In this document: in pieces, positions 28,801-58,616 of the stretch
How positions within the stretch are numbered: the first letter of the stretch is position 1
How the letters are laid out: each line of letters begins with the position of its first letter
From: Mugil cephalus
Lineage: Eukaryota > Chordata > Actinopteri > Mugiliformes > Mugilidae
DNA length: 64,000 nt
NCBI RefSeq assembly: GCF_022458985.1
Contig: NC_061776.1
Span: forward strand, 11,550,591-11,614,590
Direction of reading: 5' to 3'
Notes under the pieces: generated by a model
The model's database searches: none
What the model saw: the letters and a program-made list of their open reading frames with translations, nothing else
Told to the model about the DNA's origin: nothing
Position numbers and translations under genes: made by a program

Positions 28801-31800
28801 GTGGTGCAGATATGTTTAGTATTAATAACCTTTTAAGAATACACACCTGTTTTTTGACTGTTTTGGACACTGCAAAACAAAATGTGAAAGTGACAACTTC
28901 AGGTTGCCTTAGGTTGCCTTCAGCAGCAGCCAATACTGTAGGTCATGGTGCACTAGTAAAACAACGCTGAAATTATGACAGCCTACATCACTTGTCAGTA
29001 TTTGGGTGAGAGAAGGAGAAATAATCTCAATGATGCGATTTAGGCATTTGTCATATTGATCCAAAGCATAAACTGAATCAAATGAATGCAATATATCACC
29101 TAGTACTTAGTAGGCTTGTGCCAGTTAACAATTATCAGTTTGATAAATGTAAATGTTCATCTCCTTTTCTTACCTAGCAATGCGTATTCATTTTGACAAA
29201 TGCTACTTAATTTAAGATCTGTCATCTATTTTCCATCTAAAAATACAGAACTTCTTGCTTCATGTTTAAGAATTTTATAGAGGGCCCAAAGAAGACGTGG
29301 TATGAGGCTAGGGATTACTGCAGAGCCGTCGGAGGAGATCTCCTTAGCATCCACAGCACAGCTGAGCAACGAATATCAGTGAGGTATAGTATGATCTAGT
29401 TAAATATTTAATATCTTTTCTTTTATAAATGCCCCTTTTTGTAATCTAATCCACATAATTGAATATCATATTGGGTCACAAAATTTATCTGTTAGAGAAC
29501 ATCTTTGTAGTGTGTAGGCAATTGCAAATTGTAAAACTGAGATTCAAGGGAATAAAACTAATCCATACAACAGTTATTATGCAAGAAACAGATTTAAATC
29601 ATGAATATGAAACTGTCTATTACAGCCATCACACTGTCTGGATTGGACTGAGCGCCCCTGACCCAGCCACCGGTTATGAATGGAGTGATGGAACCCCAGT
29701 AGGTTTTCTGTCACTACTTCTGTTACCGTAAACCAGTTGTTGTTTACGCAACACAAATTACAATAAATTATATTAACACATGTATTGTTGGCTTTTATTT
29801 ATAGGTCAACTTCCAACACTGGAGTGATGGAGAGCCAAATAATAGGAACAATGCAGAATCATGTGTTGAAGATATTGGATATTACTGGTGGTCAAGTGGG
29901 TCATGGAATGATGCGCAGTGTGAAGAGTACAACAACTGGGTTTGTCAGATGCGTCCAGGTAAGGCATGGTGAAGTGGTTACTATAGTAACAACTGTTTAA
30001 AGTTGTCTTCTAGTGTGCTCAAATGCTCCCAACTTGTAGCAGCAAAGTTTGTCACTGTCACCTCAACGATGAAATTAATTAATTGTTTCCGTGTCCATAC
30101 AGGTATCACTCCAAAGCCGCCTCCGGACCCTGTTGCACCTGGTAAGTATGACTTTATGGACAAATATGCATGGGATTAGAAGAACTGGTTACTTGATTTT
30201 TTCTGCCACTCAAGTGAAGCAGAGGTAATTGAAATTTATTCTCAAGGTACTCAAACATTACATGTATATGGTCAACAATATGCCCTCCTAGCTTCTTTGG
30301 ATGAACCTGGTAAAAGGCTATTTGGATTACATTATAGGGTGTGTTTCAGCACACATACAGAGAAAAAAAAACCTCTACATGCAATTAGATAGCCTGCAAC
30401 CAATCAGAACCATTTGGTCGTAAACAAATTCAATACCAGGTGACATGACTAATCAGTGTTAGCCTTCTGCCTATCACTGAATAAAGCCTAAAAACCCCTT
30501 GATTGACACTTGGTGGAGCATGAGTTCCCAAGGGAGTGACTCCAGCCCAATTTTCTGCCACAAAACATGTGTGACAGTGGTCAACTACAACTAAAATCCA
30601 TTTCGGAAAGGACTGTCCCAGTCTTGTTACAAAAGACTTTCCTCATAAATGGTTCTTGTAAGGATTATTTCATTATGGAAGACAAAGACAGTTCCAACAT
30701 TTATCTGTTGTTTAAGCATGAGGCAATTCTGAAATTAACAAAATACATGTGTTTAAACACACCATCTGAAATTCCATATACAGTATACTGAAGCTATATT
30801 AACTATTTCTGCACATTTTCAGATTATAACACAACCTCTGATGGGTGGCTAGAATGGAATGGGAATCAGTATTACATTAACAACAATCGAATGGCCATGG
30901 AAGACGCTCGTCACGTATGCCAACAGAAACATGGTGATCTCGTAACCATCAACAGCGTGGCTGAAAGTGTGTTTTTATGGAAACAGGTGAGCGCTTTGAA
31001 AAAGAAAAATATAAATAAATAAAGCACAAAGCATTTTAAAGTACAGTAGGCAAAGCTTTTCACTTCAGCACTAAAAGAATAAAATACATTTATTTCTATA
31101 CATACATTTATTGGCTTTTAACGTAATCATTGTATGTCTGTTTGTAGATATCAAGAAGTTACATAAACGTCTGGATAGGCCTGACGTTAGATCTTGACGG
31201 AACATCTCAGTGAGTATCAATATAATGCAAAAAATAGCACAAATGTATATACACAAATGTCACGTCACCAGTTAATAATACTGCAAAATATGTACAGTAA
31301 AAATGTTAAACAATTTTGGTATGAATGGGATATTTGTTTGATTGCTCATACTGGACTGCTTTGTATATCTCTTTCAGATTTTGCATTTCTACTAAAATTT
31401 AGTTTTTGTTGATGTCTTATTACATTAAGGTGGGTGGATGGTTCTCAAGTGGTGTTTGAAAGATGGGATGAAGGTCAGCCTGATTTCAAGAATTATGATG
31501 AAAACTGTGCAGCTATGATGTATTATGGTGAGTAAACTGAAATATGATTCACTTCCACTAACATATAAATAGTAAATAAAAGTATAAAAAGTGTAATCTT
31601 ACTTTGTCAGAACTAGAAAAAGAAGAGACTGAAGTTGACTAATAAATACACACTGTTTTAATATATATATATGTATGTATATATATATATATGTATATAT
31701 ATATGTATGTATGTGTATATATATATATGTATATATATATGTATGTATGTGTATATATATATATACATACATATATATAAAGCCAATCTCAGATTTCAGG

Positions 31801-34800
31801 CTTTGCACAACACAACAATAGAAACGTGGCCTTTAAATTAAAAATGATTTACAATGTGCTGTGAAAACAGTCACTGGCTTATTTTATAGATTTGTGACAA
31901 GAAATGTCAAGCAGTTCAAACTGAAGATATTGATATAAGGAGTTATTAAGACACGAAGTCTTACAGCTGACAAGGCATAGAGTAAACAATTGATATCAAG
32001 GCTATTAATATTGATAAAAACGGCACTGGATCACACAATTGTACAGCGTCCTGTCAATCACTTGTTCTAAGGTCAACAATTTGTGTCCAAAATACTAAGG
32101 CTAAATACAGTGAAGGAATAATGACTGGATGTGGATACACCGCATGTCTAGAGACCATAAGTCAGATCAAAAATGGGTGTGATTTCATTAATATCTCAGG
32201 GACAATAGCTTGAATCCATATTTGATATTGAAAGAAGTGCAGACTGTGTTGGGTGCTGATTATAATGTACAGTGATTTTCATATCTTGAACTGGTTCACA
32301 GGATTTTGGCACAATCACAACTGCGGTTTGGAGTTCCAGTCTATTTGCAAGCGCAGTGGCTCACCACCTGCTAACACCACAGTGGCACCTACAGTGGCCC
32401 CTAAAGGTGGCTGCCAAGACCCCTGGAAGAAATTCAACTCCAAGGTCAGCCAGTACTTAAGATTCAAAATCATGTAGAATGTAAGGGGTGGGAAGGAAAC
32501 TATGGAATATACATTCTTGGAGCTTGGCACTGTCTTTTAAATATTCATCTTTTAAGGTGTAAGTTTTTTTCTCTGAGATTTTGCATTAAGCGGTTTTGTC
32601 ACATCAAGTGGGATACCGATATTTGGTATATTTTCCAGAGCTGTAATATGCATTGTGTGTTAAAATTCTAGTGTTACAGCATCTTCAACAACCAGAATTT
32701 AACATGGAATGGAGCAAGGAAACAATGCAGAGACATGGGTGGAGACTTGGCCTCTATTGACTCAAGACATGCAGAAGGTTTGCTTCATTTTTCCCACAGA
32801 AAAATAGTCATATTTTCTAAATGTTTTTATGTCCACTTGAAGTAGAATCATGTGATTCAGCTAATGAAACTTCTGTTAGCTTTTACTTTTTTATATAAGG
32901 CCTTTGACAATTGGATGGAGTTCAATACTGACTTAATCACTAATTTTAACCCTTTAAATGATTTATGTTTCAATGCAAAAAAGCTGCTACCGATAAAGTT
33001 TTAGGTTTTAAGCGGACGACTGGTTATGTACTCTTCTTACTTATATCTGAATTTCCAGTGTTTCTGATGTCACAAATGGCTGACGCAAATGCTAGAGACC
33101 TGTGGATTGGTCTCCGTAGTTTCGAAGGTAAGGAGTTTTACTGGACTGATGGGCGACCGAGGTCATATGTCAACTTCGGTTTGGTAAGTGGACACATCTG
33201 GATTAATATCGTGCAGACTGGGTAGCACATTTGTTTAAAAGTGTGACACTTTGTTTCTCCATTGCAGAGGAAGGACAGCGATGATTTTTTTTTGGTAATG
33301 TGGTCAAGTTTCAATATACTTCAGCTATTACTCTGTATAAAAGTGTGCCATGCTTTGTTGGAGTGAAATGCATTTGCATTGTTTATAACCATATCTGTAA
33401 TCTGTGGGTTTCCATTGCAGCCTTTCATGCACTGGTGGCTTAAGAGACAATTTGAGCAAGAGGTCAGTAGTTAATTAAAACTAAAATGTTGGTATAGTAA
33501 AATTATCTTTGCGGGAACCTCTCCATCTCCATCTGTCCATCCTTTTATCCGTATTTTAAATGTTTGCGGACACACATAATCAATTTAATGATCATATTAC
33601 ATTGAAGCTAACTTGGAAAACAAAGTCTATGTATGTCAACTAAGACACAATGCTTATCTTAAAAAAGTTGTGATTATAGTATAGCAGACCCTCACACTGA
33701 ACATCATAACTACTGTATTCCTGCTGGGAAAGCAAACAGCAGGATAATGGGACTTAAGGATAAGAATGAACAGTATTCTCTCTTCATACTGCTTCTTCTG
33801 CTTATCTCAAAGTCTGTTTTCACAGACATTGACAACGTTTTTTTTTTTTTTTTTTTTTTTTAGATTAGAGTCTTTATTGTCATTGCACCGCAGCATATAA
33901 CAATATATACTGCACAACAAAGTTGAGGTACAGCTCTCCCGTCAGTGCAAAAGATAAATATTCAATAAATAACTAAACTAGACAAGGCATGTACAACGAC
34001 AAACTAAAAAGGACACTATATACAAATTAGAATGTAAATAGGACTGGATAATATTGCACTTGTTTGAGGAAAAGGAAAAAACTTGCACAGTCATTTTTTT
34101 CATGAAAGTAAAACGTTGTGGCTCAAATGACATGATTGTGACAGCTGTTTTTATTCAGCAGGGCTATGACCTTGTTGTAGAAACTGTCCCTCAGTCTGTT
34201 TGTCCTTGTTTTCAGCATCCTGAAATGTCACCATACAATAAGTGTGTTGTGATTAACACCAATACTTTGGCTGGTATTGGTAAATGGATACATAAGCCCT
34301 GCAATCAGACCTATGGATTTGTCTGTCTTCGGAATGTTGGTGAGCCCATTTTTGTTTTTTGTTTTTTAAATAAAGCCGTAATTCCTACTGCATATGTCTC
34401 TATTTCATCCCACACATATCTGCCTTTCCGCTACTACGGTTGCAGTACTGCTGTACGGTATCTAATAAATGTATTTCCATTCTTGTTCTAAACAGACACA
34501 ACTTTGCCAGATGTCCCTGAACCACAAACTCCTACCATTTATATCAAAATTCTTAATGACTCCTTCAAGGTTGCACCTCAGCAAATGAATTGGGATGCGT
34601 CCAAGAAGCACTGCGAGGGGGATGGTGCCAACCTAGCTAGCCTGCGGAATGAGTGGGCGCAGGCTTATGTTGAGCTGCAGGCTTTGAATCTCAAGGCTCC
34701 TCTATGGATTGGACTAAACAAAGTGCAGGTACACTGCTGAAAGCCTTTTAAACAGAGCATAACAAAATTAAGTGGCTAACTTGTTCCATATTTTAAAAAT

Positions 34801-37044
34801 AAAAATAAAAAACTGCTAAACCAACTTGTTCCAAATAAGGTCTTTGCCCGCCCACATGGTGTTTAGTTATTATTAGCAAACAATAATCTATTGGTTCTAC
34901 TGTTGTACAGGCCACCTATAAGAAGGTGTAACATTTACCCTCATAGCTTATTAAGTTATAATTGCTAAATAAAACTCAATATATATAAATGCTAAATACT
35001 GTAAACTTACAACAATCTCATTACATTATGAAACGTATGGCAAGTAGGAATCTGACCCACACTTAATCAAATCAACTGTGAGACCATTTGTGCAACCTCA
35101 CTTCTTGAAATTATAACAATGGTGAATTTGATTAATCTTTGCTTTCAGACCAATGGTTACTTCAGATATACTGATGGGTGGCGTATGAGATTTACTCGCT
35201 GGGGTAAAGATGAACCAAGCCCAGATCGAGCTTGTGTCTACATGGATGTGGATGGAAAGTGGAAGACTGCTCACTGCAATGAGACCTTTTGGGGTGTTTG
35301 CATGAAGTCTACTGGTATGACAGAAAACAATAGCAAATGTTCATTTAAATATGCTGACATGAAACTCATCCTAAACTTTAGCATGTCTCGTGCCTTTAAG
35401 TCAATACCCCATAAACTTGAACATCTCCTGCATTTATCTGACTGAAAAAATCTGGACGCAGTATTTTATTGAAGTGTTTTCAATGCACTGGGTTTGTAAG
35501 AATAACACATATAATTAGCTGATTCTAGTGATCTCATCATTGTCTCCCTCATTCACAGATGTGCCACCTACAGAGTCCACTGGTTTTCCAGGAGTCTGCC
35601 CTCAAGACCCAGATACATCAAGCGAAGAGCGCAGTTCTCTCTGGCTGCCATTTAGGGGTTACTGTTATGCATTTTTCACTATGGAAAAAGACTGGTCAGG
35701 AGCATCTGCTAGTTGCGTTAAACATGGTAGGCATTTTCTATGAAAGATTTTTTCATGCAATAAACCACCTGTAATTTGTTTTACTAAAAAAAGGCTGTGT
35801 TCTGTGTAGGTGCAAATCTTGCCAGCATTGAAGATCCCTCTGAGCAAGACTTTATAACAACACATGTGATCACATTCAAAGACAGCTACACATCTTTCTG
35901 GATCGGCCTGTATAAAACTCACAGAGGTATGCTCCTATTTGAAAAGTACTATTGAAGGAGGAAGGATTGTTGTATTGTAGTTTTTTTTTAGATCATAGCA
36001 CAAACGCATGAGTTATTTGCCTATTTGTTTCCAGGGGAGTGGAAGTGGTTGGACAAGACTGTAATGGATTACACAAACTGGGGTGAGGATCAACCGAGTG
36101 GATACATTAATGGAGAAATTAGTACAACTAATGGGACGTGGAGGACAAGCAGGAACGTGTATAACAGACCATACATCTGCAAAACATCCAAAGGTAAAGT
36201 ATTCCATAAATAGCTCAGATGAAACCGGTAAGAGGATATATAATAACACTGTTGTCTCCTGAGATAACTGACAGTCAGGGACTACATCAGTCAGTGAATG
36301 CTATAATAGAAGAACAAAAGGTAAACCAAGGCTATTGACAGAGGTAAACCATCGTATTAACCTAGCTGTCAGCCATCACTCCTAATAAACCACTCGCCAA
36401 ACACCAACAAATAAGGAAGTACTAAAGGTTTTGATTCCTGGAAGCTGCTGCACACTGATCTTCAAAACCGTTCTTCAGGAATCCTCTGGGTGTCACCTAG
36501 GTTAAGTGAACGAATTCATGTAAAATCAATGCTTCATAAGCGCATTAGATGCTGCACTGGTTCGTTTGTTTAATCGCGAGTTAAGACAAGTAGCTACTTT
36601 CTAATTTCTCTCCAATTTCCCTTTACAGTAATACCAACAAAGCCACCGCCACCAACAACAACAACTAGTAAGCAACTCCTCTTATCTTCATTATTTCACT
36701 GTGACATTTGTTACAGCTTTCTATTGTGTGATCATCATCTACTTTTTTTCCTCCCCGTCTGTGCAGATGTTGGATCAGCTCATCATCATCGTGGTTACAT
36801 AATTTCGGCAGTGGTGCTGATCATTGCCGGGATTGCGGTGGGGGCATGCATCGCTTTCTTCCGCTTCAAGAAGATGGGCTATCACATCACATTCCCCCCT
36901 GAGAATTATTCTGCTTTTGAGAACCCAATCTTCTTCGGTAATAAGCAGCTTGATTCAGCCACTGACAAGACCCAGCCTGCTCCGGTCGACACCAATACAC
37001 AAGTAGACAATGCAGACGACACTGAAGTCTTGATAACTATGTAA
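22826..37044 (+). CDS. mrc1: Macrophage mannose receptor 1-like, copy B (32 exons, about 1,445 aa, complete)
   Basis: Second tandem MRC1-family receptor. Coding exons: 22826-22889, 23146-23502, 23708-23875, 24021-24176, 24382-24492, 24876-25013, 25089-25268, 25904-26058, 26679-26792, 27285-27400, 27504-27652, 27744-27943, 29271-29383, 29626-29698, 29805-29958, 30103-30141, 30823-30986, 31148-31209, 31430-31527, 32302-32444, 32672-32777, 33059-33183, 33268-33294, 33421-33462, 34216-34339, 34496-34728, 35149-35314, 35559-35726, 35810-35926, 36035-36193, 36629-36667, 36767-37044. They total 4,338 nt in one frame without a stop. The order is signal peptide ([17 protein letters not shown]), cysteine-rich domain, FNII (one residue shorter than A and C), CTLD1-8, membrane helix and tail. 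CTLD4 keeps EPN and WND. Oddities: two CTLD6 mini-exons instead of one, a probable LINE-derived start to exon 25 (34216), QPD in CTLD5, no inner disulfide in CTLD8, and FENPIFF in the tail. The acceptors at 24382, 27744 and 29271 (each AAG) have weak pyrimidine tracts but are fixed by homology and phase. Confidence 0.92.
26262..26356 (+). mobile_element. DNA transposon (Tc1-like) transposase fragment, copy B intron 8
   Basis: The translation [20 protein letters not shown] matches a transposase segment common in fish genomes (the stretch with QHDNAP). Only about 95 bp is recognisable, so it is a decayed remnant. Confidence 0.6.
27984..28457 (+). mobile_element. Possible solo LTR in copy B intron 12
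   Basis: It starts TG and ends CA, with a TATA-like ctataaagag near 28326 and an AATAAA at about 28402 followed by a short U5-like segment. No internal retroelement sequence or clear target duplication was found, so this is tentative. Confidence 0.3.
29626..29958 (+). other. Copy B CTLD4 carbohydrate-recognition exons with EPN and WND
   Basis: Exons 14 and 15 give [20 protein letters not shown], then [11 protein letters not shown] and [17 protein letters not shown]. The calcium/mannose motifs EPN and WND are intact. A distinctive YYWWSSG insert sits just before WND, in the position where copy A has NQDED, so the edge of the binding site differs between copies. Confidence 0.87.
31662..31778. 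repeat. (TA/TG)n low-complexity tract in copy B intron 19
   Basis: Alternating TATA and TATG units over about 115 bp. It can form alternating purine-pyrimidine structure. Confidence 0.85.
33059..34339 (+). other. Copy B CTLD6 long loop: two mini-exons plus an extended downstream exon
   Basis: After the exon ending VNFGL (33059-33183) come two phase-0 mini-exons: 33268-33294 (RKDSDDFFL, 9 codons) and 33421-33462 ([14 protein letters not shown], 14 codons). The following exon (34216-34339) is 124 nt, against 103 nt in A and C. The extra 21 nt add HPEMSPY ahead of the conserved NKCVVI. All junctions keep frame. Confidence 0.78.
33839..34236 (-). mobile_element. 3' end of an L2-like LINE, antisense, abutting copy B exon 25
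   Basis: A poly(T) tract at 33839-33860, then the reverse complement of gacaataaagactctaatct, marks the 3' end of a fish LINE on the - strand. Further in, the - strand reads [20 protein letters not shown], a pattern typical of the C-terminal end of such elements. That reading continues to about 34228-34236, inside the exon that begins at 34216. Confidence 0.7.
35559..36193 (+). other. Copy B CTLD8 exons, inner disulfide missing
   Basis: Exons 27-29 show [25 protein letters not shown] and PYICK. As in A and C, the two inner cysteines are gone. The stretch after NWGEDQPSG reads [13 protein letters not shown], and the position before YIC is NVYNRP. Confidence 0.78.
36767..37044 (+). other. Copy B membrane helix and cytoplasmic tail
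   Basis: The final exon encodes a His-rich stalk (SAHHHRG), a hydrophobic helix ([20 protein letters not shown]), basic FKK, and the longest tail of the three. The tail has FENPIFF where human MRC1 has FENTLYF, so the motif tyrosine is Phe. Two other tyrosines (MGYHI, ENYSAF) lie closer to the membrane. It ends LITM, with TAA at 37042-37044. Confidence 0.87.
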
Positions 37045-37570
37045 TTTGAAAAACAATCAAAAGAGTCTGATCTGAAATACTATGTTATTAAGGTCCACTG
37101 TTGCTGGCCCATTGGGACAATTCAGTGGTGAAATCATGTTTCATGTATGTTCTTTATGTTTGACCAGAGCAGGCAGTACGGTGATATAACAGCATATTTT
37201 GAATGACAGTGTAAGAGGAATCTCTCCTGCAAGATGAAAATATTGTAATAACCTTTTGACTACATTGTTTTACTACAAAATTCTGTATAGGTTACAGATA
37301 AATATGTACACTTGGTACAGACTGGCCACACTATCACTTCTGTTCACATTTCTGTACTGTATATACCTTGGTTTTTGGGGTGAAAGTTTGGGAAATTGTT
37401 GGAGTTTCATTTTGGGATTTGTTGATAATTCCTTGTTCTCTGATTCTGTTGATGAACTAAATAGTATAGGAATGTACATATATAACAGTGGGCTAATTTC
37501 CCTGTTTCAGTGCATTCATTCTTACATGTTGACATTTTTGTTATACTGCATGTTATGTATAAGAGAATAC

Positions 37571-37576
37571 AATAAA
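37571..37576 (+). promoter_or_regulatory. Probable poly(A) signal of copy B
   Basis: AATAAA lies about 530 nt past the stop codon and just before the Harbinger-like insertion that starts at 37642. It fits the end of a 3' UTR. Confidence 0.45.
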
Positions 37577-37641
37577 AAGGTTGAAATGAAGAAGGTTGTG
37601 ACCAAAAGGCTACAGAAGTTCAGAGTACAGATGGTGATTTA

Positions 37642-38672
37642 GGGTGTGTTCACACCAGGCTCGTTTAGTCCACTTGAAACCCTATGCGAACCTGTTGGAT
37701 AGGTGTGAATACAAATCAGCGGACTCTGGTGCAGACCAAACATGTGAACCGAGACCACCTCTGCAGCTGGGACTCGGTTCACTTGTTTGGTCCGCACCAG
37801 AGTCCGTAACGAACCCTGGTATACTTCGCTTGTCCTGTGAATGCAAGTTCCGAACCAAATGCAAAACCCGAGCGCCTTCTTGGATTAAACGGGCTTCCGT
37901 TTGTAACAACTCACCATACACACAAGGGGGATCTTTTCAGGACAACAGTACCTTTTAATGTAATTAATATCTTACGGAAAAACCGACCCCGCCTTTGAAA
38001 CCACCAATACAACACACAAAAGGCCGACATGAGTGTAGGGTGTCCCGCATTTAATTAACAGAATAATTCCAAATCTAACGAAAAAATTTTAAGTTGCCCT
38101 ATTCAACCCACTCTTAAATGTTTAATGTTTAAATGATATTAAGTTTGTTTAATTTCACGGCATTGGTGGCCGTGAAGTTAAACAAAGGAAAAATAAGCGA
38201 CAGTTTCCTCCATAAAAAACAAGAAAAAAACTAAAATCTGTGATCCATCGCCAACTGGTATACCAGGAACAAAAAAGTTACAAATGTTGTGATCGGTCAT
38301 CGGTCGTTTCATTCATTCACTCGTTTCTATTTAATACCAAGAATGAGCCGTCGGTCAATGTGGGGCACAGAAGAGACGCACTGCCTCAGCATGTATCAGC
38401 TGCTTGACGCACAAAATTGCTGACGTCCAAATCGCCAAGAGAATGTGCGAGGCAGGCTTTACCCAGACTCCGACGCAGTGTCCAAAACTTCGCAAAGATC
38501 TCGCCAATAATTTTTATCCAGTGACTGAGCGGCTACCGGACACACGTGGGTTTGTTTACAATGTTGGTGCGCTTGTCAAAAAATGCAATGTGAATACAAA
38601 CTGAACCAAGTTTTTTTTTTTTTTTTTTAAAGGTCTGCATCAAAGCAAGACTTTCCTGGTGTGAATACACCC
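37642..38672. mobile_element. PIF/Harbinger-type non-autonomous element with TTA target duplication
   Basis: The left end gggtgtgttcacaccagg and the reverse complement of the right end (gggtgtattcacaccagg) match at 17 of 18 positions. The element is flanked by TTA at 37639-37641 and at 38673-38675. Inside, 37723-37807 contains an inverted repeat built on actctggtgc and gcaccagagt. No transposase is recognised. Confidence 0.7.
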
Positions 38673-40379
38673 TTAATCTCCGCAATAAAGCAAAGAGTTT
38701 AGTTAAAGAGGAGACAAATTATTCATTATGGATGACAGAAGAAAGATATGTTTTGCAGGAAGTCTCTCATGCAATTGACACATTTAATGTCAAGTTCTGC
38801 TTTTTGTTACCACGACTATGACCAAACTTGAAAAACTACTTAATCAACTTTGAAAAAATGCAACGACTCAGTTCTTATTCTTTGATTTCATTCACAGAAA
38901 CACGTTGGATTTTCTTAGGTTTTTAGGTTTAGTTGACCATTTTTCCTGTGTGGTTTTCCTGGGTATTGTGACTGCTTCGCTGGTTTGTGATTTGGCACAA
39001 CATGTCATTTTGATGTTGCTCAACTTTTAGACAGTTTGTACTAGCACGTCTCACCTGCTGTTCTTACTCATCACCAGCAGTGACCAACTCTTTGTAAATG
39101 ACATAATCAAGAATAATTATGATTTAGATTACAGTGAGTATTTCAACATCAAATGCCTACTTTAATTAAACTCGTATTATCCTGTCATCCATGTCCATGC
39201 TCATGCAAGCCAAGGGTTATGGGTGTGGACCACAAAGAACAAATGTTCAGCATTTAATCCTCCCACTGACTAACTTGTAATTATGTTTTTTTCTTTTTAG
39301 ATTTTTTTGGCTGTCTTAAACTGATTCTCAACAGCATAGTGTTCAAGCATTTACCTCAGATAATCTAATCTAATATAATCTAATATAATCCCAGGTACAA
39401 TAAGATATTAATATGGTAAGAGACACATGGCATTAAACTTCCACATTTTTGCAGAAAGGGTTCAAGTTTTATGTCTGCCTATTTTACTTGGGATGGGAAG
39501 GAGACAAATTCTGACCGAAGGCTTTTCGGTGACATTTGGCACTCCATTGCTCTGTGCTCCCCAATCTGTAACTAGCTTCTATGCTTTCTGAAAATAAGCT
39601 AAAAAGTGCAAAGTTACAACCAGCCTTTCAGAAACTTTCATGGGAGATTGTATTTTTCTATGTTTAATGTGATACTTCAATCCTTAGAACAATATAATAA
39701 TACAGAAGCGAAAGCCAAGTATTGGTCTTGATTGTGTGAGAAGTACAAGTGTACCTTATACACAGTAACTGAAAATATTCTTATTTTTTCTATTCCTAAG
39801 AATGTCCAATACAAAAATATAAAGTCAGCATTATAGCTTCCTTGTAGTGGATGTTGCACAATGTCTACAGTAAGTTAAAACTAATGTGAATCATGCTTGG
39901 CTGCACCAACCCGCCGACCACAATCTGAATCACATCTGCTTCTCTGTCCCTACATGCATATGTGTCAAAAACAGATTTAAAAAACTGGAAATATATATTC
40001 AAGAATGTTACTATAGAACACATTGCAGTCGCCCTAATGGCCAACAGTGGGTTCTTAATAAGAAACTGAAAAATAAACACACCATCAAAAAGAAAATTGC
40101 TTGCCCTAGTTAATGTGCATGGTATCTGGGCGAATTGTCATTTCACTGGACTACAACACTTCCTGGTTTCCACATCAGTCTGTTTGTTGTGCAATGTTGT
40201 TCGTAAAAGCACTATTCCGGATACAAGTGTGCAAGTGTGTTCCGATTAAAAAAAAAAAAAAAAAAAGGATGTCTCCGTGCTACAAAGACTGCTGTTCAAC
40301 GATCATTCACACAGCTCCTAAATCCTCAGCAAGGATGCATGAATAAAGTCTTTTGCTGTCAGACACAAGTACGCTAACA

Positions 40380-43300
40380 ATGGAAAGGATAACTTGTACT
40401 GCTTTCATGCTCCTCATACAAACATTCCAATGCTTGGCTTCGGATGGTAAAGTATTGTCATTTGTCAAATTTCTATTATTAGTTACCAGTATTATTGTTC
40501 AGGAAATATAACATCTAATTTGACTCTGCAAAAATAATCCTAATGATGAGATCCTGCAAGTGCGTTTATATGAATTCTTTCCCTACAGATTCACCATTTC
40601 AATTAACGAACAAGGCCACAGGTTTTTGTTTGGTGAAAACAAATAACCACTGCAATGACTTACGCTGGACAACCGGCGATCGACTCCTGGTCCAGCAGAG
40701 GAATAAGTGCCTGGGAACCCAGGGGAAAAGTGTGGGGAGTGAAATAAGCCTCTACGACTGTGATGAAACCAGCGAACTCCAAAAGTGGGAATGCAGGAAC
40801 GAAACAGTGCTCGCCCTCAAAGGCCAAGAGCTTTACATTAACCTCACAGCAGATAACACAGCCGTTCTCTCCAAGACGACAGGACCCAATAACCACCTCA
40901 CCATTTCAGGGACGTCCAGCGGTGCTTGCACAAGAACGTACAGAGGTACAGTACTGTGTGACATTAACAGAGTTGTGATGAACTTTACACAAGAACAAAT
41001 CATTTCCAAAAAACTACAAAGCAAAGCTAAAATGATGAAGATTTTTTAGAGGCAGTTTTCAAGTTGAAAGGTTTGAAGTCAAATGTGTTTACATATAACC
41101 TTCACCCATCAGAAAGGCAAATTTATCTCAGTCTGCATTTAAAATGGGGCACATGCACAATTTTCATTAATTTGGCTTTTTACAATAAAAAAAATAAACA
41201 AAAATACAGTTATACAATGAACATGGACTTTGAGTGGAGACTATTTTAATCCAAGGGGATTTAGTAATTATAACTTTGATAATTTCTTCACTCCATTTTC
41301 AGAGTATATAATGAAACATTCGGACAAATTAATATTATTGGGGTAAAAAACACTCGATTGGTTGAGATCAAAATCTCAAATTTGTGCTTTGAGTTGTTGC
41401 CCATGTGTATAGTAAAGCACTGTCCAAACAACTTTCCATATCAATAAACACTAGTCACCCAAAGCCACTGAAAGTCATGCCTACCATTCCCAAGATTTTT
41501 TTTTTCCCACAATCCTGGTGCAGGTTAGAGTCTTCAGTATAAAAAAAAATGTTGTTTGAGAAGTGGCATGGCTTTTTTAGATATTTATTGGCAAAGTCTG
41601 GTCTTTTTATTCTGAGAGGGTTCTCGCTAGGTACGACATGTCACTTGACACATCCAACCAAGGTTCTCTGTCTAAAAAATAAACTCGACAACCAGAATCC
41701 AACTATGAAAAAGATTAACAGCGAGGAGACACACAGAACACCGGTTGTCTGGGTTTGAGCATACAGAAAGAAGAAGAATGTAGACTGGGCGTACGTCATG
41801 CATGCTCTCACTTCCAGTATCTTTGTACCTTAAAGCTGTACGTCATATTTTCTCATGAAAATAAGTGATGCAGATATTCCAATGAACTGCTCAATAACCA
41901 GTCTCTTTTTTTTTGTGCTTGATACCTTTTAGAACTTTTTGCCTTAGGTGGAAATGCAGCTGGAAAGACCTGCATGTTTCCCTTTCTGTACAAAGACCAG
42001 TGGTACTCAAACTGCACTACATTTGACTCGTCAGAAAAGCGCCTCTGGTGTGCGGTTGAGACAAAATATGAAAGTGAACGCTGGGGCTACTGCCCGACTA
42101 CATGTGAGTACTGCCTCACTCAAGTTCAGGTGCTGATCTGGTTTAGGACTAAATTACACTTAAGACAACACTCATGATTAACTGGCAAAAAATACGCACA
42201 TAAGGCTTGTCTTAACGTGAATGAAAGTGTCACTTAACATATATATTTTTTTTGTTTAACAGCCAAAGAACACTGGAATGTAAACCCAATAACAAACGTG
42301 TATTACCAGTTGAACACACAGGCAGCTCTGACTTGGCCGCAGGCAGAAATCAGCTGCAAACAGCAAGGTGCCTCCCTGCTTAGCGTCAATGATCCTCATG
42401 AGCATGCTTATATCACAGGTAAGGAGACAGTGACTCTGTGCTCAATGCAGTGGAAAATGTGGGCACAGACATTAGCAACAGTATGTATCAATATCGATTA
42501 CTGAGAAGATAACTTTCTCTATTCCTGGAGGCTCTATTTACATAGTCAAATCATAATGCTTACAATCAAAATCCAATGACAAAGGGAATGACCATTTTTC
42601 CATTTGTGTTGCCCATGGCCCACACAGCACTACTAGGAAGAGGGGGTAATACACTTTGGATTGGGCTGTTCCTGGATTCAGAGCATGGTTGGAAATGGAG
42701 CAGTGGAAGGCCTTACCGTTATCTGAATTGGGACTCAGGTAGGTTCAACCTCAAATTATGTACGCCATTAAAAATATATTAAACGGAAATGTGTTTAAAG
42801 TCTTTACCAATACTCAATCAAGCTCATAGAGTGGGAAGCTGTGTGGTTACCAGTTGTTTAGCTGAGAAGCAAAATGATACAAACACAAATGTAAGCAAAG
42901 CAACAGGGAAGTGATATGAAGCCTTCTATAATGCTAACAGTAAACATGATTATTGTCTTGTTTTAGGGCATCCACTTCCAAATCCAGGTCACAATTGTGC
43001 AGTTGTTGATCCTTCTGTACAGTACTCCTGGCAAAGTTCATCTTGCAGCAGGAAACTGGGCTATATTTGCTCCAGTAATGGAGCTGAGGAGACTCCCACC
43101 CAAAGTAACAAAAACTATCTCTAGTATTCTAGACATTCCCTTGTTACACTTTAACTATCCTGTATGTCTGTAATTCGGTGCTTAAATAACTTTGTTCTGC
43201 CTCATCAGCTCCTTGGACAGGATTTTGCCCAAGTCCATGGATTCCCTACAATGGCCACTGCTTCCATCTTAACAGAACTGAGAAAACATGGTCTGATGCT

Positions 43301-46300
43301 CAGAAAGGATGCCGTGGGGTAGGAGGGGACCTTGTGAGCATCCGCAATGTGGAGGATCAAAGTTTTGTCATCTCTCAACTTGGATATGGTATGTGCTTAC
43401 ACGCTTACAGCCTTTTATTACTGGCGCCTTTCTTCTATTTGGTTTTCTTTTTTTTTGCAATTTTGCAGCTGAATGAAGTTATCTGACAACTGTTTATGAA
43501 TGTTGGCAGGATCCACAGATGAGCTTTGGATTGGACTAAATGACAAGAAGACAGAGAGGTTATTTGAGTGGAGTGACCACTCCATCGTCAGCTACACTAG
43601 CTGGGAATATGGAAAACCAACTGTTTTGGGGGATATAAAGGACTGTGTTCTCATCAGAGGGGAGGTAAGGTTTGGACCATCGTGTGGTTGTGGTGAACAT
43701 ATTATTTCTATGTACACTGACGAGCCACAACATTAAAACCACTGACAGGAAATGTTAACAACACTGACCATGTTGTAACAATTCAATGTTCTGCTGGGAA
43801 ACCTTTGGACCTGGCATCTGTGTGAATGTTACTTAGACATGTACAACCCACCTAGACTCGACGAAGGCACCCCCACCCCATAGCAATGACATTCCTTGAT
43901 GGCACACACAGGCACACACACAAAAATGGCTTAGGAACAGCACAAGGCTTTGACCTGGCCTCCAGATTCACTAGATCCCAAACCGATCAAGTATCTGCGG
44001 GATGTCTGTGAAGGTTCTCGGTTATCCAAGTCATGGTAATCCATGGATTATCTGTGGGATGCACTGGAACAAGTCTGACGCGCAAAGGCACACACAAACA
44101 ACATTGTGTTGCAAAAAACCACAGGACTCCCTCAGAAGGCCCTTGTCTGAGTCACAACTGTTTGGAGGCACAAGGGAGATTTACACAATGTTAGAAATGT
44201 CATAATGTTAGGCCTGATCAGTATATATGCACAGAAAAATTTGTAGTATATATTTTTGTTTTGTTTGTTTGTATGACATTAAATTTGTATTTATTTTTTT
44301 GGTAACATTGCCTTTTAGACGTAATCTACGCATAAACACGTTTTGGTATTGTGTTGCAGAATGGAAATTGGGCCGACCGCGTGTGTGAGGAGAAACATGG
44401 CTTCATTTGTATGACAACAAGTGTTTCAACACCCACCGGAGATGAAGTAGATCAGGACGTAGGCTGCAAAAAGGTGTGTTGCATTTCCTTGCTGTTATTA
44501 ATTTTGGTTTGCCTTTTTAATAAAGCGTTCATTTTGTGTTCATATTGTATAATTACATGTGGACAGTAACACAGTGCTAAATGAATACTAGTGTCACTAC
44601 TTGATATAATGATATGGTTTTTATTTTTTAACTCATTTTATTTTTTAATAAGTGGTCAAAAAATTATTATGCAGAATTAAACAAAAACTATGACATTATG
44701 AAATTATGTATTACTTAAGGCAGTAATTTAATTTTGTCTGATATGATACCAATTCTGCTAAAATAAGACGCATAAGTGTGACTATGTTGTTTTCAGTCCA
44801 TTCATTGACATTCTCTGTAATATTAAGCAACCACATCAAACTTCTTCACTGTGTTTTCCGCCAATGCAGGGATGGAGGCGTCATGGCTCATACTGCTACT
44901 TCATAGGAAAACAGACCAAAACTTTTGACGAAGCTAAAGACGATTGCAAGAGCTCGGACTCTTATTTAGCTGATGTTTCAACCGGGTGAGAACAATTCCA
45001 ATGAATTCAAGTGTTGTTGGCACACTACATTTACACATGAGATTTAACACATACGTTGAGCAAAACAAGAAGCAAAAAACGTTTAGTTTCACCAGATAAC
45101 CTGTGATCCATGAAAATAATTCCAGGGTGGATAATGCATTCCTTGTGAGTTTGGTTGGGAGCAGACCAGAGAAACATTTCTGGCTAGGGCTCTCAAATCA
45201 GGACAATGCAGAGAAATTTGTATGGACCAACACAGAAACAGTAAGATTTACTCACTGGAATGCTCAAATGCCAGGTACGTTGAAATACTTAAGTCCATCA
45301 TTGACAGGTTGTGAAACAGTAGCTTCACAATTAACAATTCACTATTTCTCTTTTGATAACGTAAGGTCACACACAGGGCTGCGTCGCCATGAAAACTGGG
45401 GTTTTTGCTGGCCTTTGGGACGTACTGCCTTGCACCAATAGGGAAAAATACATCTGTAAGCATCGAGCAGACGGGGCAACTGTAACCCCTGCCCCACCGA
45501 CTGTCAACCCTCCAGACTGTCCACTGGGGTGGACTCCATTAAGATCAAGAAACCAGTGCTATAAGGTACAAACTTGTGGGAGGTACTGCAGCTTAGAGAA
45601 TACTTTAGTTTTGATAGGATTCACCATCATTCACAAACATGTTAACTAGCCAATATCGAAAAACATACCTTTGAGGCCACACATAAATGTCTAAATTATG
45701 CACTTCAGGTTCAATGGTTCACACAATTTGCACCATTAGTCCCAAAACAAAGACTGAGATTACTAGGGTTTCAATGAGAACTTAAAAGGCAATGTTTTTT
45801 TTTAAAAATGTTACCACCTACAGAGACGTTTCCTTGTGAATGGCATGAAGTGATATTATCAAACAATGCTGAACATCTTGTTTGGTTTGCAGTTGTTTGG
45901 AGAGTATTCGGAAACAAAGAGGACCTGGTATGAGGCCAGAAATTACTGCAGAGCTATTGGAGGAGACCTGCTCAGCATCCACAGTGATGCTGAACAACAA
46001 GTTCTACCAGAACGGTACAGTGAGAAATGACAAATTATGTATCATATTTCCAGAGCAGCAGCACATCACTGAGTCTACTAAGTTGGGAAAATTTTTACAA
46101 AAATGTGTTATATTTAAACCATTCATTCAAATTTGTCCATGACAGCTATGAAGTAGTATGGATTGGACTAAGTGCCCCTGATCCCAATGCTGGTTATGTA
46201 TGGAGTGATGAGTCTCCAGTAAGTAAATACTTTTCCGTATAGTTTTTAGTAAGGAACACAAGTATTTACTAATCCACTGTTGTTGTTTTTTTGTATTATT

Positions 46301-49300
46301 TACAGCTGAATTTCCAACACTGGGAGGAAGGAGAACCAAACAATAAAAATAATGTTGAATCTTGTGCGCAAATCAAACTACACCGAGGGTCCCAAAGTGG
46401 ATCTTGGAACGACGTGCACTGTGAGACATTCTTAGGATGGCTCTGCCAGATTCGCTTAGGTAAAACATTGACAAACTGGACAGGTTTTCTTTCACATGAG
46501 CGTGGCCACCTACACTTGATGCATTTCAAATACACTTTTTGCAAAAGCAATATTTCTGAAATTTCAAAAAAGTGCAATTGCTCTTTGCAAGTGTTAGGGT
46601 TAGGGGTTAGGAAAACTGAAAACTGTTTTGTGTCTCATCAGTAAATAACTCTCAAGTGTTGTCTCACAATATCCAACAATTCTTTTAAATTTGCGTGAGA
46701 CTTCACTTTGAGGAAGATGGACTTCAAATGAACTGGTCATATCCTGTATCATATCTGGCGACGGGGAATTGCGAAAAAAAGTGTTTCCTTTGCACTTTTG
46801 CGATAAACTTATATCAATACGTCTGAAAAAACACAAATAGTTTTAGCCACATTTGAGAGGTTTTTTGAAATGTAGGTGTTTCCATTACCAGTTTTTTATT
46901 ACAATATTTAGGTTTTGCGCATTTGTAAGGGTAATGGAAATGCCGCAACTGTCTGAACGTCACCACTGAAGTTTGACTCAAGTGCTGGGTGTCCTCGTCT
47001 ATGACGTTCAAAAGTTGACCGGTTTAAAAAACAGCAAGAATAACAAAAAACATGACTGGTTGACATGTCTCCGTGTCACTGGAGCGTCGAAAAAAGTGAA
47101 TGGAGTGAAGTGATATTATCAAACAATGCAACAACTGTTGGGCATCCCTTGTTTTTTTTTTTTGTTTTGTTTTTTATATTGCCATCTTGAAACATGATCT
47201 ATAGCTTGTAGCTCTTTGAAGGATTCAGCATTTATTCAGACTTTAATTATCTTTTTTCCTAACAGGAGTGACCCCAAGTCCATCTCCAAGCCCAGTGACT
47301 CCAGGTAAGTCATTTCTCAATGTAACCACACAGAAAATGGCAAGATTCAATTTGGCCTCAAAATATTTAATTATACTGCATTCAAACTACACACCAACAT
47401 TTACAGTTTCATTTGTAAGAATAATTTAAATATATTCACTTTAACTGGAAAAAGGTTGGGATTCTATTATGAAATCAAATCTGAATCATGTAACTTCAAG
47501 TATCAAATAAAAACTTGCAACTAATAACTATAACTGAAGTCATAAAATAATTACAAGTGAAAGACCTCCTGCTAGAAGAGGTGGTCAATACTAAAGAGGT
47601 AGCAACTAAATTAACCAACATTAAAACTAATTAAGATCAATGGGGATTTGGGTTTGGAATTTCTGGTGGGGCCATGCAGGAAAATTTTACAATGCAATCC
47701 AGAAATACCATAATAAATACCCTCACAACAAAAACACAAAAGCCAGAATACCCAGAGAAAACCCACGCAAAATGCAATGCATGGCACACGACGCACACCC
47801 AATACACAGCAAGCAATATACAAAGTCACCACACACAATTTACTGTGGCCAAACAGCCATTTCAGTTCCACAGATAGGTAAACAGCTCCGTAAGGTTGTG
47901 CCCCCCCACTCACACACCCACACACGTATTGCTAGTTATGGATTACACAAATTCCATTATAATTGAAACAATATGTAAACTACATTATCGATTCCATTTA
48001 GAATGGTAAATTAGAGTAACCAAGCGACATTTTATGACTGCCTGGTTAACCAAGTTGTCTGTTTAAAAAACTGCTGGTTGAATGACTTAGTTTTGTCTTG
48101 AGAAATTATGTCTTTTGTCTTAAATAAATATAAATTATTTTATCTCCAACTTCTGCTCCAGTCCCAAATCGCACTGGCCAGGTTGTCAACTCGATTTATC
48201 ATGCAGTGAATGAATGAAACATGAATTAGCTATGTTACGTTACATACATTAGCTGAGCTAGCCAGACCTGTGCAGTCCCCGCCCTTGCTTCAAATAAGCC
48301 AATCGGAATCGCTCTGGGGCCCTGAACCTCAGGCTCTACTACGCAAACTGGGTGGCTATGCTCCACCGATCGTAAACAGAGACGCAGCATCAGACACAAC
48401 AAACTGTATTCACCCACAACTACCACTACAAGAAGTGTCTACAGAGGAAACTGTGTTCAAAGACGCCACTGATTAAGGTCACCTAATTAATTTCCACAAC
48501 GTGGACCAATATTTGATCTACTCATAAATTTGGAGAAAACTGATTAAAACACCAGTGACTATGAAAAAATAAATAAATAAAAAAATCAAAAGCTACACTT
48601 GAACAGCACATATAATGACCTGTTTGTGCTGTGTTTTCAGACTACAATAGAACCTCAGATTGGTGGCTAGAATGGAAAGGGAATCAGTATTATTTTAACA
48701 GAGATTCAATGTCCATGGAGGAAGCTCGCCACTTCTGCCAACAGCGGCACGGTGACTTGGCGACTATAAACAGTGAAGCTGAAAGTGTCTTTATCTGGAA
48801 ACAGGTGAGCCACAATGTTACCTTAAACTACGCTACTAACAATCAATCGCCACAGTATTTAAGCTCAGAACATACGGAAATTTAAGTACTGGTAATTTTA
48901 CTGCATTCCTCCCGTCTCTGTGTGCAGATATCTGAAGATTACGGCCAATATTGGATAGGCCTGATCGTAGATCTTGATGGATCATTTGCGTGGGTATTAA
49001 TGAAATAGTGAAGAATGGATTCAAAACTAAATATTAAACAAGAAAATTATGTGAAACTTGTGACACATTTCTGATGTGAACTATGTTGACCTAAATATAT
49101 AAATTTGTTTATGAAAAGTAAATATTACTGTTGCAAAACTAACTTCTTAAACATGACCACAGTAATTAGCAACATACATTTTATAAAATCAGTCAAGATG
49201 AAAGTAAATGAATGAGTCTTTTCTTGTAATTTTGCTTTGCTACAAAAAGGTGGATGGATGATTCACCAGTTGAGTTTGAAAGGTGGAATGAAAATCAACC

Positions 49301-52300
49301 TGATTTCAAGAACAATGATGAGAATTGTGTTGCCATTACTTCTTCAATGGGTGAGTGGCTTTAAATTAATTAATCCTGACTAATCTATGGTGGCTTTTCA
49401 TGTAATTAATGTAATAAAAACATTTTAAAAAACATCATTCAATTTTAACAGCCAAGATGAAAAATGTATTCTAAATTCTGGTTTGGGTCACAGGATTCTG
49501 GCATGATTATAATTGTGGCTTGGACTACAGATCAATTTGTAAACGCAGTGGCTCACCACCCGCCAATGCTACTGTAGCACCAACTGTTCCCCCAAAAGGT
49601 GGCTGCCCACAAAGCTGGAAAAAAATTAATTCAAAGGTAAGAGTTAAGTCTTGTATTACCACCGAGGTGGTAATACAACTGATACAGCACTAATTACATG
49701 TTTAAAATGAGCAACTGCTGATCTAGAAAATATCACACAAAGCTGTTGATTTTTCAACCAGTGTTACAGCATCATTAACAACGAGAAGGAGACGTGGGAG
49801 GGAGCGAGGACAAAATGCAAAAGCATGGGAGGAAATCTGGCCTCAATTACCACAAGACATGTTCAAGGTTTGTTTTATGTTTGATATCGTTAGCCTAGTC
49901 ATAGTCAGATTTGAATGTTTTCGGAAAACAAGAAAAAAAAAACACAATTTTTAGTTGTACAGTTAGTCAAAAAATTACTTAGGCTATTATACTATAGTAT
50001 ATTATAACAATATATAGTACTATGGTCTGCTTTTTTCTTAATTTGTAACATAGAATGTAAATGATAACACCAGCATCATCCCCTGTGCTGTGGGTGGTAC
50101 TGAATATTCAAAATAGTAATAATGAAAATAGCCAGCACCCTTTGGGCTTCAAGTGATTGTCAATAACATTTCAGGTCTATTTAGGCATTCAGACTGGAGA
50201 AAACATCCCCAGACTTGAATATTCTGATCCATAGTCTCACTGGGGTTTAAAACCATAACCCTCTCTCTTCTGTTCGTTTCCCTAAAAATACCATCCAGTG
50301 TTGGCCACAAATGTCAAACTTATATTGGTAAAGAAAAACTTTTCCAAGTCATCAATAAGAAAGGTTTCCACCCCAAGCCTTTAGGATTGTTTGTCAGTGG
50401 TGAACAGACACTACTCATGCTTTGAGCCGACGACTACTACTAAAGCCATGTTTGACAGTCTTTTTACTTACTAGAAAAATTCTGTGCCACTGATAAAATT
50501 GTTCTTCTGTTTCTCAGTGAATCTGAGTGTTGCTTCAATGGAAGGATAAAATTCCAAGGTTAAAAAAAAAAAAAAAAAGAGATTTATTTAAATTTGATTG
50601 ACGATGATGATAGCAAAACACTAGAAAACTTGTTTAAACTGTTGGATTTCTTACACTGCAATGCTTAGGCTGCAATATTAACAAACTTTTGTTTTTTTGC
50701 AATAAACAATAACCAAGTCTTAAATATTTGTTACATTTTTAGTGTTTTTGACAAATAAAATGGTTGAAGCGCCTACTACGAACCTATGGATTGGTTTACA
50801 TAATACGCATGATTCTTCATACTACTGGACTGATGGGCAACCAAGGCGATACAACAATTGGGGGTTTGAAGTAAGTGGACAATGTAATTTCTATATTATG
50901 ATGATAAGTGCTTTAGTTGTGTAGAATCACATTTTAGTGTGTGTTTTAAAAAAAGATTTTTATGTTGTTGTTTTTTTTTAATTATTATTTCTGTTGTTGC
51001 AGCGATACACTTCCCATATCATATATGGCGATACTCAATGGGTAACACATTTATATTTTTCTGTTATAATTTTGGCCATGGCAGCTTAGGATATAGAAAA
51101 ACTGACGTGTGTCAAGTACCAACAATCTTTTTTATAAGTTGCACTTGTTGCTTAACATTGCTAATACCAATTTGCTTTTGCAGAGGCATCCATACGGCCC
51201 CCAAATGACAGATGATCTGGTAAAACACAAGTTATATGAATCTGTATTGTTAATGATGCTGTATATTTTCTTCTTACATTTTTGAAATCCTGATTTTTCA
51301 TTCCAGATGTCTTATCCTCACCTTTTGCATTTGAATGAAGAGGTAATGCTTTACTTGTACTGTAATGTAAAAAATTTCAATTTGCCTTGAAACATTCACA
51401 AGTTCCCCTCTCTTTAGCACAATGTGCTAACAAAAAAATCTTTTCGTCATTATTCTTGTTCTGTGCCTTAAAAGGGAACATGTGTGGCGATGACTACTGA
51501 TCCCAAAATTGGTACTGGGAAATGGATAAAAAGGTCCTGCAATGACACCAATGGATATGTCTGTATGCGAAATGTTGGTGAGTCAACAATTTACATTCAA
51601 ATAATGACTATAATTGCTTTCATTATTGAATAATCTGTTAGTTATTTTTGATCAATCTTCAGATCACCTTGTCTAGAAAAAAAACAGTGTAACTAAACTT
51701 ATCTCCAAATTCCTTCACTTGACAAAATACGATTGAACCAATTAACAGATATTATTTTTCAATTTATTAGAATGTGTTTGTCTGATCTGACAGACAACAT
51801 ACAGCCTGGCTCAGTGTTCTCCAATTAGTTATACTGTATGTCACAAGTAAATAGCCCCTCAAACTACCAATTGTGCTACTTTGTGATTTGTTGTGAGTGC
51901 CCTCTAATTGGCACTACTTTCAAATAATCAACATAAAACACTTTTAACAAAAGTGTGCTTGGTGAATATGTAATTTAATGTTTCTAAGGAAAACATATAG
52001 TAACCCTAAGCATGTGCAGAAGAGAGCTGTTCACCTTAAAATGAAAAGAAATTTGTCTTTTTTTCTAACCACTAATAGATGAAACTTTCCCGGACTCCTC
52101 TGATCCAACTCCTACTGGCTATGTCAGTATATTCAATGACTCCATCAAGGTTGTTACTCAACAAATGAACTGGTATGCAGCCCAGAAGAACTGCGAATAT
52201 GATGGCGCCAACCTGGCAAGTCTGCGTACTGAGGGGGCACAGGTCTATGTCGAGCTGATGGCTTTGGATCTGAAAGCTCCTATGTGGATTGGACTGAACA

Positions 52301-57224: not shown

Positions 57225-58616
57225 TACATTTTAATGGTTTTCAACAACTGAATGCATATTTGTCAAAATTAACTTCAGACTTCTGTACAAAACAAAAACC
57301 ATCAAAACAAACCTTGAAAGGAATCAGTCTTCTTACAGCAAATCATACACATAAGTTCAAGTTCTGCCAAACAGTGCAACAGGCTCTCTGGTTGTCCTTA
57401 CATATACCTAACAAGGCATTTATGAAGTATGTACAAATGCATAGAGATTGTATTCAAGCAGTATATTTTATCACAAGAGGATGCATAGAGTATCCAGCAT
57501 GTAGCACAGGTCAGTGTCATCAAAATATTATTCATGCTTCCAGATAAAGCAAATGCAATGTTTCCAGTCAGTAAATATGCTTGAACATTGTTTTCAAAAG
57601 TAGGAAGCAACGTATGATTTCCCTTTGGAATCATGTAGAAAAATAGTTTGACTTTTCATACTCATGTTAGAAATAAATCACTGGCTTTTGAAGGTACACA
57701 GATTTAAACACATGGGGGCAGAGGAAGACGTGACATAGAAACTACACAACCTGTTCCCAGCAATCATTTGAACATTTGTGCAACGTATAAATGTAAAATT
57801 AACACAGCTATTGATTTAGTAGTTTAGTTTTATCTCATGGTCACTTCTGAGATGACCTCTTTTGGGCTACAGCAAATTCATTTTTATTTTATTTTTCTGT
57901 GTGATTATTGATTAACCTTATATTCTCATCAGTCAATTACTTACAGAATACAATTTCGCAAAAGTCAAGGTGTCATCTTCACTTACGTCGTTTAGCCCAC
58001 AGATAAAGTGGAAAATTCATAAATCTGAGATGATGAAACTAAACTATGTTTGTAATGTGCGTTACAGAGAATTTCATTCAATTCATCAAACAATTGTATG
58101 CATTACTTTTTGGGACATGTTGCAAAACAACGTTCTTTTTATTAAAATTGAAAATTTTTATCATGTTATCAGATTAGCATGTAACTACTTTTATAGTTTT
58201 TATTTTTTTTTAATAGTTAGTTTCCCTTTGAATGGAAGTAAAGAGTGTATCTTTTGATTTTAGTCGAAGCCATTTTTTGAGTTGTGATGCGAGACTATGG
58301 AAGCTATAAAAGCCATCTGTCCCTACTGTCTGGTGTTTCATTCACATATGAGTTATAAGGACCATATCAGTGCATTTTACTCTTGTTTGTGCAAAGCACA
58401 CACACAGGATTGGGTGAAAACATGACACACAGAAATGTGTCCTACAAACGCTAAAATACCTTTCGGTAAAGAATAATAAAGAGGAACACTGTGAAAAAAA
58501 AATGGCAAACATGAGGAGAAACACTGTCTACCAAGAAGACACACTCACCCCGACCACAAGTGCATTATAAAATGAGCAGCATACAACCATGCACCAACCC
58601 TCAGTAGAAACAACAG

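Follow-up and report, generated by a model that had tools for sequence, protein, structure and literature searches.

The long loop of CTLD6 is predicted to lie on one, two and three phase-0 mini-exons in tandem mrc1-like genes of Mugil cephalus

We have analysed a stretch of 64,000 nucleotides (nt) of the Mugil cephalus genome (assembly GCF_022458985.1, contig NC_061776.1, forward-strand positions 11,550,591 to 11,614,590; the window, in whose coordinates all positions below are given). In our exon models it carries three tandem mrc1-like genes, here copies A, B and C, with CysR, FNII and eight C-type lectin-like domains (CTLDs) in order. In CTLD6 the long loop appears on small exons of its own, one in A, two in B and three in C. 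Judged from the sequence, this split loop is real, derived and unusual, and from the same evidence we infer that the extra mini-exons are used. The explanation that we favour, with moderate confidence, combines an intron gain, a constitutively used terminal mini-exon in each copy, additional cassette exons and, in B, a splice acceptor borne by a repeat. The exons concerned are as follows.

12680-12807, + strand: copy A, CTLD6 WIGL exon, ending NWGYS with a phase 0 donor
13016-13060, + strand: copy A, mini-exon A1, KVQRRPGTFYQRWNE; acceptor score 3.2, donor score 6.3
13195-13297, + strand: copy A, CTLD6 C-V exon, from the exon model
33059-33183, + strand: copy B, CTLD6 WIGL exon, ending NFGL
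33268-33294, + strand: copy B, extra mini-exon B1, RKDSDDFFL; acceptor 6.0, weak donor -0.4
33421-33462, + strand: copy B, terminal mini-exon B2; acceptor 4.0, donor 4.3
34216-34339, + strand: copy B, CTLD6 C-V exon, with its acceptor and first 14 nt inside a repeat
50743-50870, + strand: copy C, CTLD6 WIGL exon, ending NWGFE
51003-51041, + strand: copy C, extra mini-exon C1, RYTSHIIYGDTQW; acceptor 5.3, weak donor -0.9
51184-51219, + strand: copy C, extra mini-exon C2, RHPYGPQMTDDL; acceptor 2.8, weak donor 0.9
51307-51342, + strand: copy C, terminal mini-exon C3, MSYPHLLHLNEE, with likeness to the unsplit loop of a second mrc1-like gene
51475-51577, + strand: copy C, CTLD6 C-V exon, from the exon model

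An earlier note on this DNA had described these six mini-exons, and its description holds: each is preceded by AG and followed by GT, and all six have open frames, lengths that are multiples of three and phase 0-0 borders, which would permit skipping, as that note had supposed. Their peptides are, as claimed, unrelated (the lowest shuffle p among 15 pairs was 0.050, for C1 and C3). We likewise recovered the single exon structure that it reported elsewhere in the genes. Apart from the loop, A, B and C have 26 exons in one-to-one correspondence, with identical length in all three copies for 15 of the 26 and agreement modulo three for 24, and the loop intron is the only site found in the modelled part of the genes where exon number depends on the copy. 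The models were built from similarity between the copies, with a border set by hand in 4 of the 78 modelled exons; exons 6 and 12 are not settled, because two of these hand-set borders lie off AG/GT. As for identity, CTLD6 matches PLA2R, LY75, MRC1 and MRC2 chains, and CysR and FNII are assigned by their likeness to such domains and by the paralogues found in the same genome. Among the 78 modelled borders (two of them the off-site ones), the donors of B1, C1 and C2 stand at percentiles 8, 6 and 23, and those of A1, B2 and C3 at 78, 62 and 47. The terminal mini-exons (A1, B2 and C3) and the extra ones should be treated separately.

At the protein level, a search of the genome (634.8 Mb in 24 contigs, with the window on contig 7) gave 71 matches, with 72 of 346 candidates scored. 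They include an mrc1-like gene on contig 18, which looks like a second mrc1, and relatives on two further contigs, which look like pla2r1 with ly75 after it (contig 3) and like an mrc2-like gene (contig 20). We compared CTLD6 in the second mrc1-like gene, pla2r1 and the mrc2-like gene, setting ly75 aside and reading the loop borders by eye in every case, the contig 18 gene included. In all three, the loop shares an exon with the WIGL motif, after which come a phase-0 intron and the C-V exon; the unsplit loops end at this phase-0 border with NWAKGHPMSLPDGRYFIEE (second mrc1-like gene), NWSPIEPKSYLT (pla2r1) and NWAPGEPLDNSGPHHNKTP (mrc2-like gene). A scan of the loop introns of the contig 18 gene and pla2r1 found no mini-exon candidate in either; the mrc2-like loop intron, at 84 nt, fell outside the mini-exon scan. 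The split is thus present in all three copies and in none of the three paralogues compared. A tree of A, B, C, the contig 18 gene and pla2r1, with the contig 20 gene left out, groups the three copies against the other two genes (support 99) and B with C (87). Moreover, the donor of the WIGL exon stands at the same place after NWG/NFG in A, B and C, and GTAAGTGGACA is common to B and C. Since these paralogues have the CTLD6 loop joined to the WIGL exon and no mini-exon, a derived split is the simplest reading, produced by one intron gain in the common ancestor of A, B and C.

Traces of the old loop may survive in the terminal mini-exons. Over its last 36 nt, C3 agrees with the unsplit contig 18 loop at 22 positions (control of 78 exon ends: mean 9.5, maximum 16), and B2 agrees with it at 16 of 36. 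Shuffling of the peptides gave p values against the same loop of 0.023 for C3, 0.24 for B2 and 0.75 for A1. On these p values and the match counts, that of A1 being given below, C3 is most likely the retained old loop and B2 possibly so, and for A1 such an origin is unproven. Loop length, counted from W to the C-V cysteine, is 19-23 residues in six relatives (the three fish paralogues, PLA2R, the IgY receptor and the best-matching LY75 domain with such a loop). The terminal mini-exon alone would give loops of 20 residues in A, 25 in B and 17 in C, and a single extra mini-exon would give 20 (B1), 18 (C1) or 17 (C2). Since one mini-exon already yields about the family loop length, the series of one, two and three may consist of one constitutive mini-exon plus optional ones.

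How often such exons would turn up by chance was estimated from a phase-aware scan of 75 introns in the three gene models (19.4 kb effective). The scan accepted symmetric exons of 18-60 nt with an acceptor score of at least 2.7, a donor score of at least -0.95 and a sum of at least 3.6, free of stops in the frame of the flanking exons and flanked on both sides by 60 nt of intron; approximate splice weights were used, and the thresholds were chosen after the six mini-exons had been seen. It returned 10 candidates: the six loop mini-exons, three linker exons (one per copy) and one stray. The linker exon, 39 nt long and in phase 1, lies in intron 14 between CTLD4 and CTLD5.

10610-10648: linker exon of copy A
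30103-30141: linker exon of copy B
47266-47304: linker exon of copy C

It is present also in the contig 18 mrc1-like gene (GVTPKPEPAIVEE), where it was found under looser thresholds; it is conserved and serves as a positive control of the scan. With the linker exon set aside, candidates of this quality elsewhere amount to the one stray in 72 introns. This rate, 1 per 17.8 kb, predicts 0.09 in the loop introns and gives a P of about 1e-9 for the six mini-exons and about 1e-4 for the three extras. A broader background of 0.21-0.25 per kb, taken from both strands with true exons left in, predicts 0.35-0.42 in the loop introns (P for the three extras, 0.005-0.01), and the upper bound of the intron rate, calculated by hand, predicts 0.52. 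Depending on the rate assumed, P for the three extras therefore ranges from 1e-4 to 0.016, and a chance origin of B1, C1 and C2 is unlikely. A phase-blind version of the scan was discarded as a source of further exons: its 2 candidates in the 72 other introns both lay in intron 14 and were the linker exon in the wrong frame. An isolated mini-exon candidate at 9966-9983, in intron 12 of A, is probably due to chance.

Under the explanation that we favour, an intron would have arisen in the common ancestor within the long loop of CTLD6, one or two residues past NWG/NFG, and would have separated the loop from the WIGL exon as a small phase-0 exon of its own. Each copy would constitutively use at least one mini-exon, most likely the last, and so keep the loop near its normal length. 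As younger cassette exons, B1, C1 and C2 would be spliced into some of the transcripts, lengthening the loop and leaving the frame intact. For B1, a tandem duplication of an intron-exon unit is the probable source, as its two flanking introns align like a tandem duplicate.

33184-33267, + strand: copy B, intron 1 of the loop
33295-33420, + strand: copy B, intron 2 of the loop

The two align from the donor on with a z of 4.7 against shuffles (36 pairs tested; the highest z of 340 non-orthologous control pairs was 3.85), and they have CATTGCAG acceptors and short direct repeats in common. The peptides of neighbouring mini-exons are not alike, though these introns are. In C, introns 2 and 3 have only a 23-nt, 78% AT-rich repeat in common, and the z at the level of the whole introns is 0.75. 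Orthology of B1 and C2 was considered and is not claimed (intron z 2.3, peptide p 0.17).

Copy B has undergone a further change, one absent from the earlier note.

33860-34229, no strand assigned: multi-copy interspersed repeat that covers part of the last CTLD6 intron of B and the first 14 nt of the C-V exon

This repeat has at least 40 other matches, none of which, among the matches listed, runs past 34229. The acceptor of the C-V exon (34216) and 14 coding bases lie within it, and CCTTGTTTTCAGCAT at this acceptor is found in all three other repeat copies that were aligned. In B the old place of the acceptor scores -9.6 and the repeat-borne one 6.9; other in-frame acceptors within the repeat, at 34159 and 34162, score 2.1 and 4.9. 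The repeat is thus the source of the predicted last acceptor of CTLD6 in B. It would have replaced the old 3' splice site of the C-V exon, which is 21 nt (seven residues) longer in B than in A and C. Exonised transposable elements bearing a 3' splice site are a known class, and in them as in copy B the repeat holds the acceptor and the first coding bases; copy B differs in that the predicted event extends an existing exon, and in a tandem immune receptor.

The earlier note had also proposed that a ligand-recognition loop was being diversified. The exon-based, copy-specific rebuilding of the loop stands; the recognition function is not supported. The motifs EPN and WND mark sugar binding, and both are absent from CTLD6 in all three copies, whereas CTLD4 keeps them in each (GEPNN...SWND). 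CTLD6 outside the loop also has the highest point values of ten domains for non-synonymous divergence (dN, 0.42) and for its ratio to synonymous divergence (dN/dS, 0.47), the latter a rough estimate because synonymous sites are near saturation; samples drawn from CTLD4, 5, 7 and 8 reach the CTLD6 value in 0.25% of draws for dN and 0.4% for dN/dS. Given the missing motifs and this top rate of evolution, the loop is not shown to serve recognition. CTLD6 and CTLD7 are the least conserved CTLDs against the contig 18 gene (37-40% and 35-42%), so the data are accounted for equally well by relaxed constraint, the simpler reading, and by diversification. The outcome would be three unrelated loop surfaces on a fast-evolving domain that does not resemble a sugar-binding one, with loop changes that were probably tolerated rather than selected.

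Several results weigh against the favoured explanation. In the second mrc1-like gene and in the mrc2-like gene, too, the donor at the loop is weak (-0.7 and -0.3), so that a weak donor alone is no mark of a cassette exon. A1 matches the contig 18 loop at 6 of 36 nt, which is no likeness. Pfam scores with zero and with one mini-exon are hardly separated (62.8 and 61.6 in A, 65.1 and 66.0 in B, 70.4 and 71.4 in C), and the dN/dS intervals of CTLD6 (0.24-0.70) and CTLD7 (0.16-0.48) overlap. Truly orthologous introns are mostly little alike (39 pairs, highest z 4.4). Two similarities, finally, clash with a simple exon-to-exon assignment: the last intron of B is similar to intron 2 of C (z 3.1), and that of A to intron 3 of C (z 4.1), the latter match being A-rich and not adopted as an equivalence.

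The strongest rival, unlikely though far from negligible, accepts the intron gain and one mini-exon per copy and treats B1, C1 and C2 as decoys whose borders look like those of exons but which are never or hardly included. It is consistent with their weak donors, with the near-family loop length that one mini-exon per copy already provides, and with Pfam scores that fall at each addition (from 66.0 to 62.4 in B, and from 71.4 to 64.4 and then 61.0 in C). The scores cover 10 of the 14 splice combinations, among them C1 as sole mini-exon (68.3); as a pointer to the proper mini-exon they were rejected, the differences being too small. Against it stand the single stray in 72 introns and the P for three extras.

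There is a smaller chance that the loop introns form a splice library, in which B and C transcripts would take one mini-exon or join several and so present alternative CTLD6 loops. Up to 4 combinations would be possible in B and 8 in C, and any single mini-exon would give a loop of 17-25 residues, close to that of the six relatives. Such a library, in an innate receptor of a vertebrate, would have grown by duplication of intron-exon units and by the birth of new exons.

A little less probable again is the reading nearest to the recognition proposal, that all mini-exons are always included and that selection for new ligands drives long loops. The enrichment of mini-exon candidates in the loop introns and the top rank of CTLD6 in dN and dN/dS between copies would fit it. 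Joining all mini-exons, however, gives loops of 20, 34 and 42 residues in A, B and C, of which the last two exceed those of the six relatives; the domain has neither EPN nor WND, its dN/dS is below 1, and its low conservation together with CTLD7 fits relaxed constraint.

We consider it very improbable that no mini-exon is used. Joining the WIGL exon straight to the C-V exon would keep the frame at about as good a Pfam score, yet the loops would be 5, 11 and 5 residues in A, B and C, as short as in none of the six relatives counted, and C3 retains likeness to the unsplit loop. Least credible of all is an ancestral split that all three paralogues (the contig 18 gene, pla2r1 and the mrc2-like gene) later lost. 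MRC1 of mammals and chicken has been described with 30 exons, a structure that MRC1, MRC2 and PLA2R are said to have in common, with their phases conserved (PMC4229073); our own count, loop mini-exons aside, is 26 plus the linker exon, or 29 if one signal exon and one terminal exon are assumed. Three separate losses would be required, however, and fish pla2r1 and the mrc2-like gene have no split despite the shared structure. The 30-exon count was thus rejected as proof of an ancestral A1, given three paralogues with no split and a count of our own below 30.

Parts of this arrangement have parallels elsewhere. Like A, B and C, the chicken MRC1L-A to MRC1L-E genes form a tandem array of mrc1 paralogues whose frames are intact and whose exon plan is shared; they have the 30-exon mammalian structure and very similar exon lengths, apart from MRC1L-D, which has no CysR or FNII (PMC4229073). 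The mullet genes differ in carrying one loop on exons of its own, in a number that depends on the copy. Several MRC1 paralogues are also known from another teleost, Fugu, in an account whose available text describes no loop exons (PMC514892). Intron gain has been called very rare in vertebrates, and the melanocortin receptors of ray-finned fishes, like the genes described here, have fish-specific gains not found in outgroups; the accessible portion of that study reports no series of added small exons in one loop (PMC3151243). Tandem duplicated, mutually exclusive exons, as far as the available source describes them, are similar in that exon units are duplicated side by side and that one of several would yield a product of normal length (PMC9741552). 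In contrast, the mini-exons of CTLD6 encode dissimilar peptides and their frame permits joint inclusion. Searches confined to the open-access literature found no report of such loop mini-exons. Exons of 27-45 nt are readily missed by annotation. At a single point, paralogues that are otherwise similar form a graded series of 0, 1, 2 and 3 small exons, in which intron gain, exon birth and repeat-borne splice sites may be traced stepwise in a vertebrate. If the extras are spliced in, the receptor surface would be altered with the rest of the protein untouched.

Some minor observations concern other parts of the window. In copy A (8603-9412), the junction of the CTLD3/4 exon with the first CTLD4 exon does not fit the phase used by B and C, the fault lying with either the model or the gene. 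Segments at 6761-6858 (A) and 43780-43877 (C) are similar (61% and 67% in two frames), lie on opposite sides of the CTLD2 WIGL exon and are probably a shared repeat fragment. Blocks similar between copies, sought as signal peptide or transmembrane exons, lie at 17170, 36736 and 54824; neither of the two tried had a Pfam match. Finally, long open frames of 271 and 256 amino acids, on both strands of 58571-59387, had no Pfam match.

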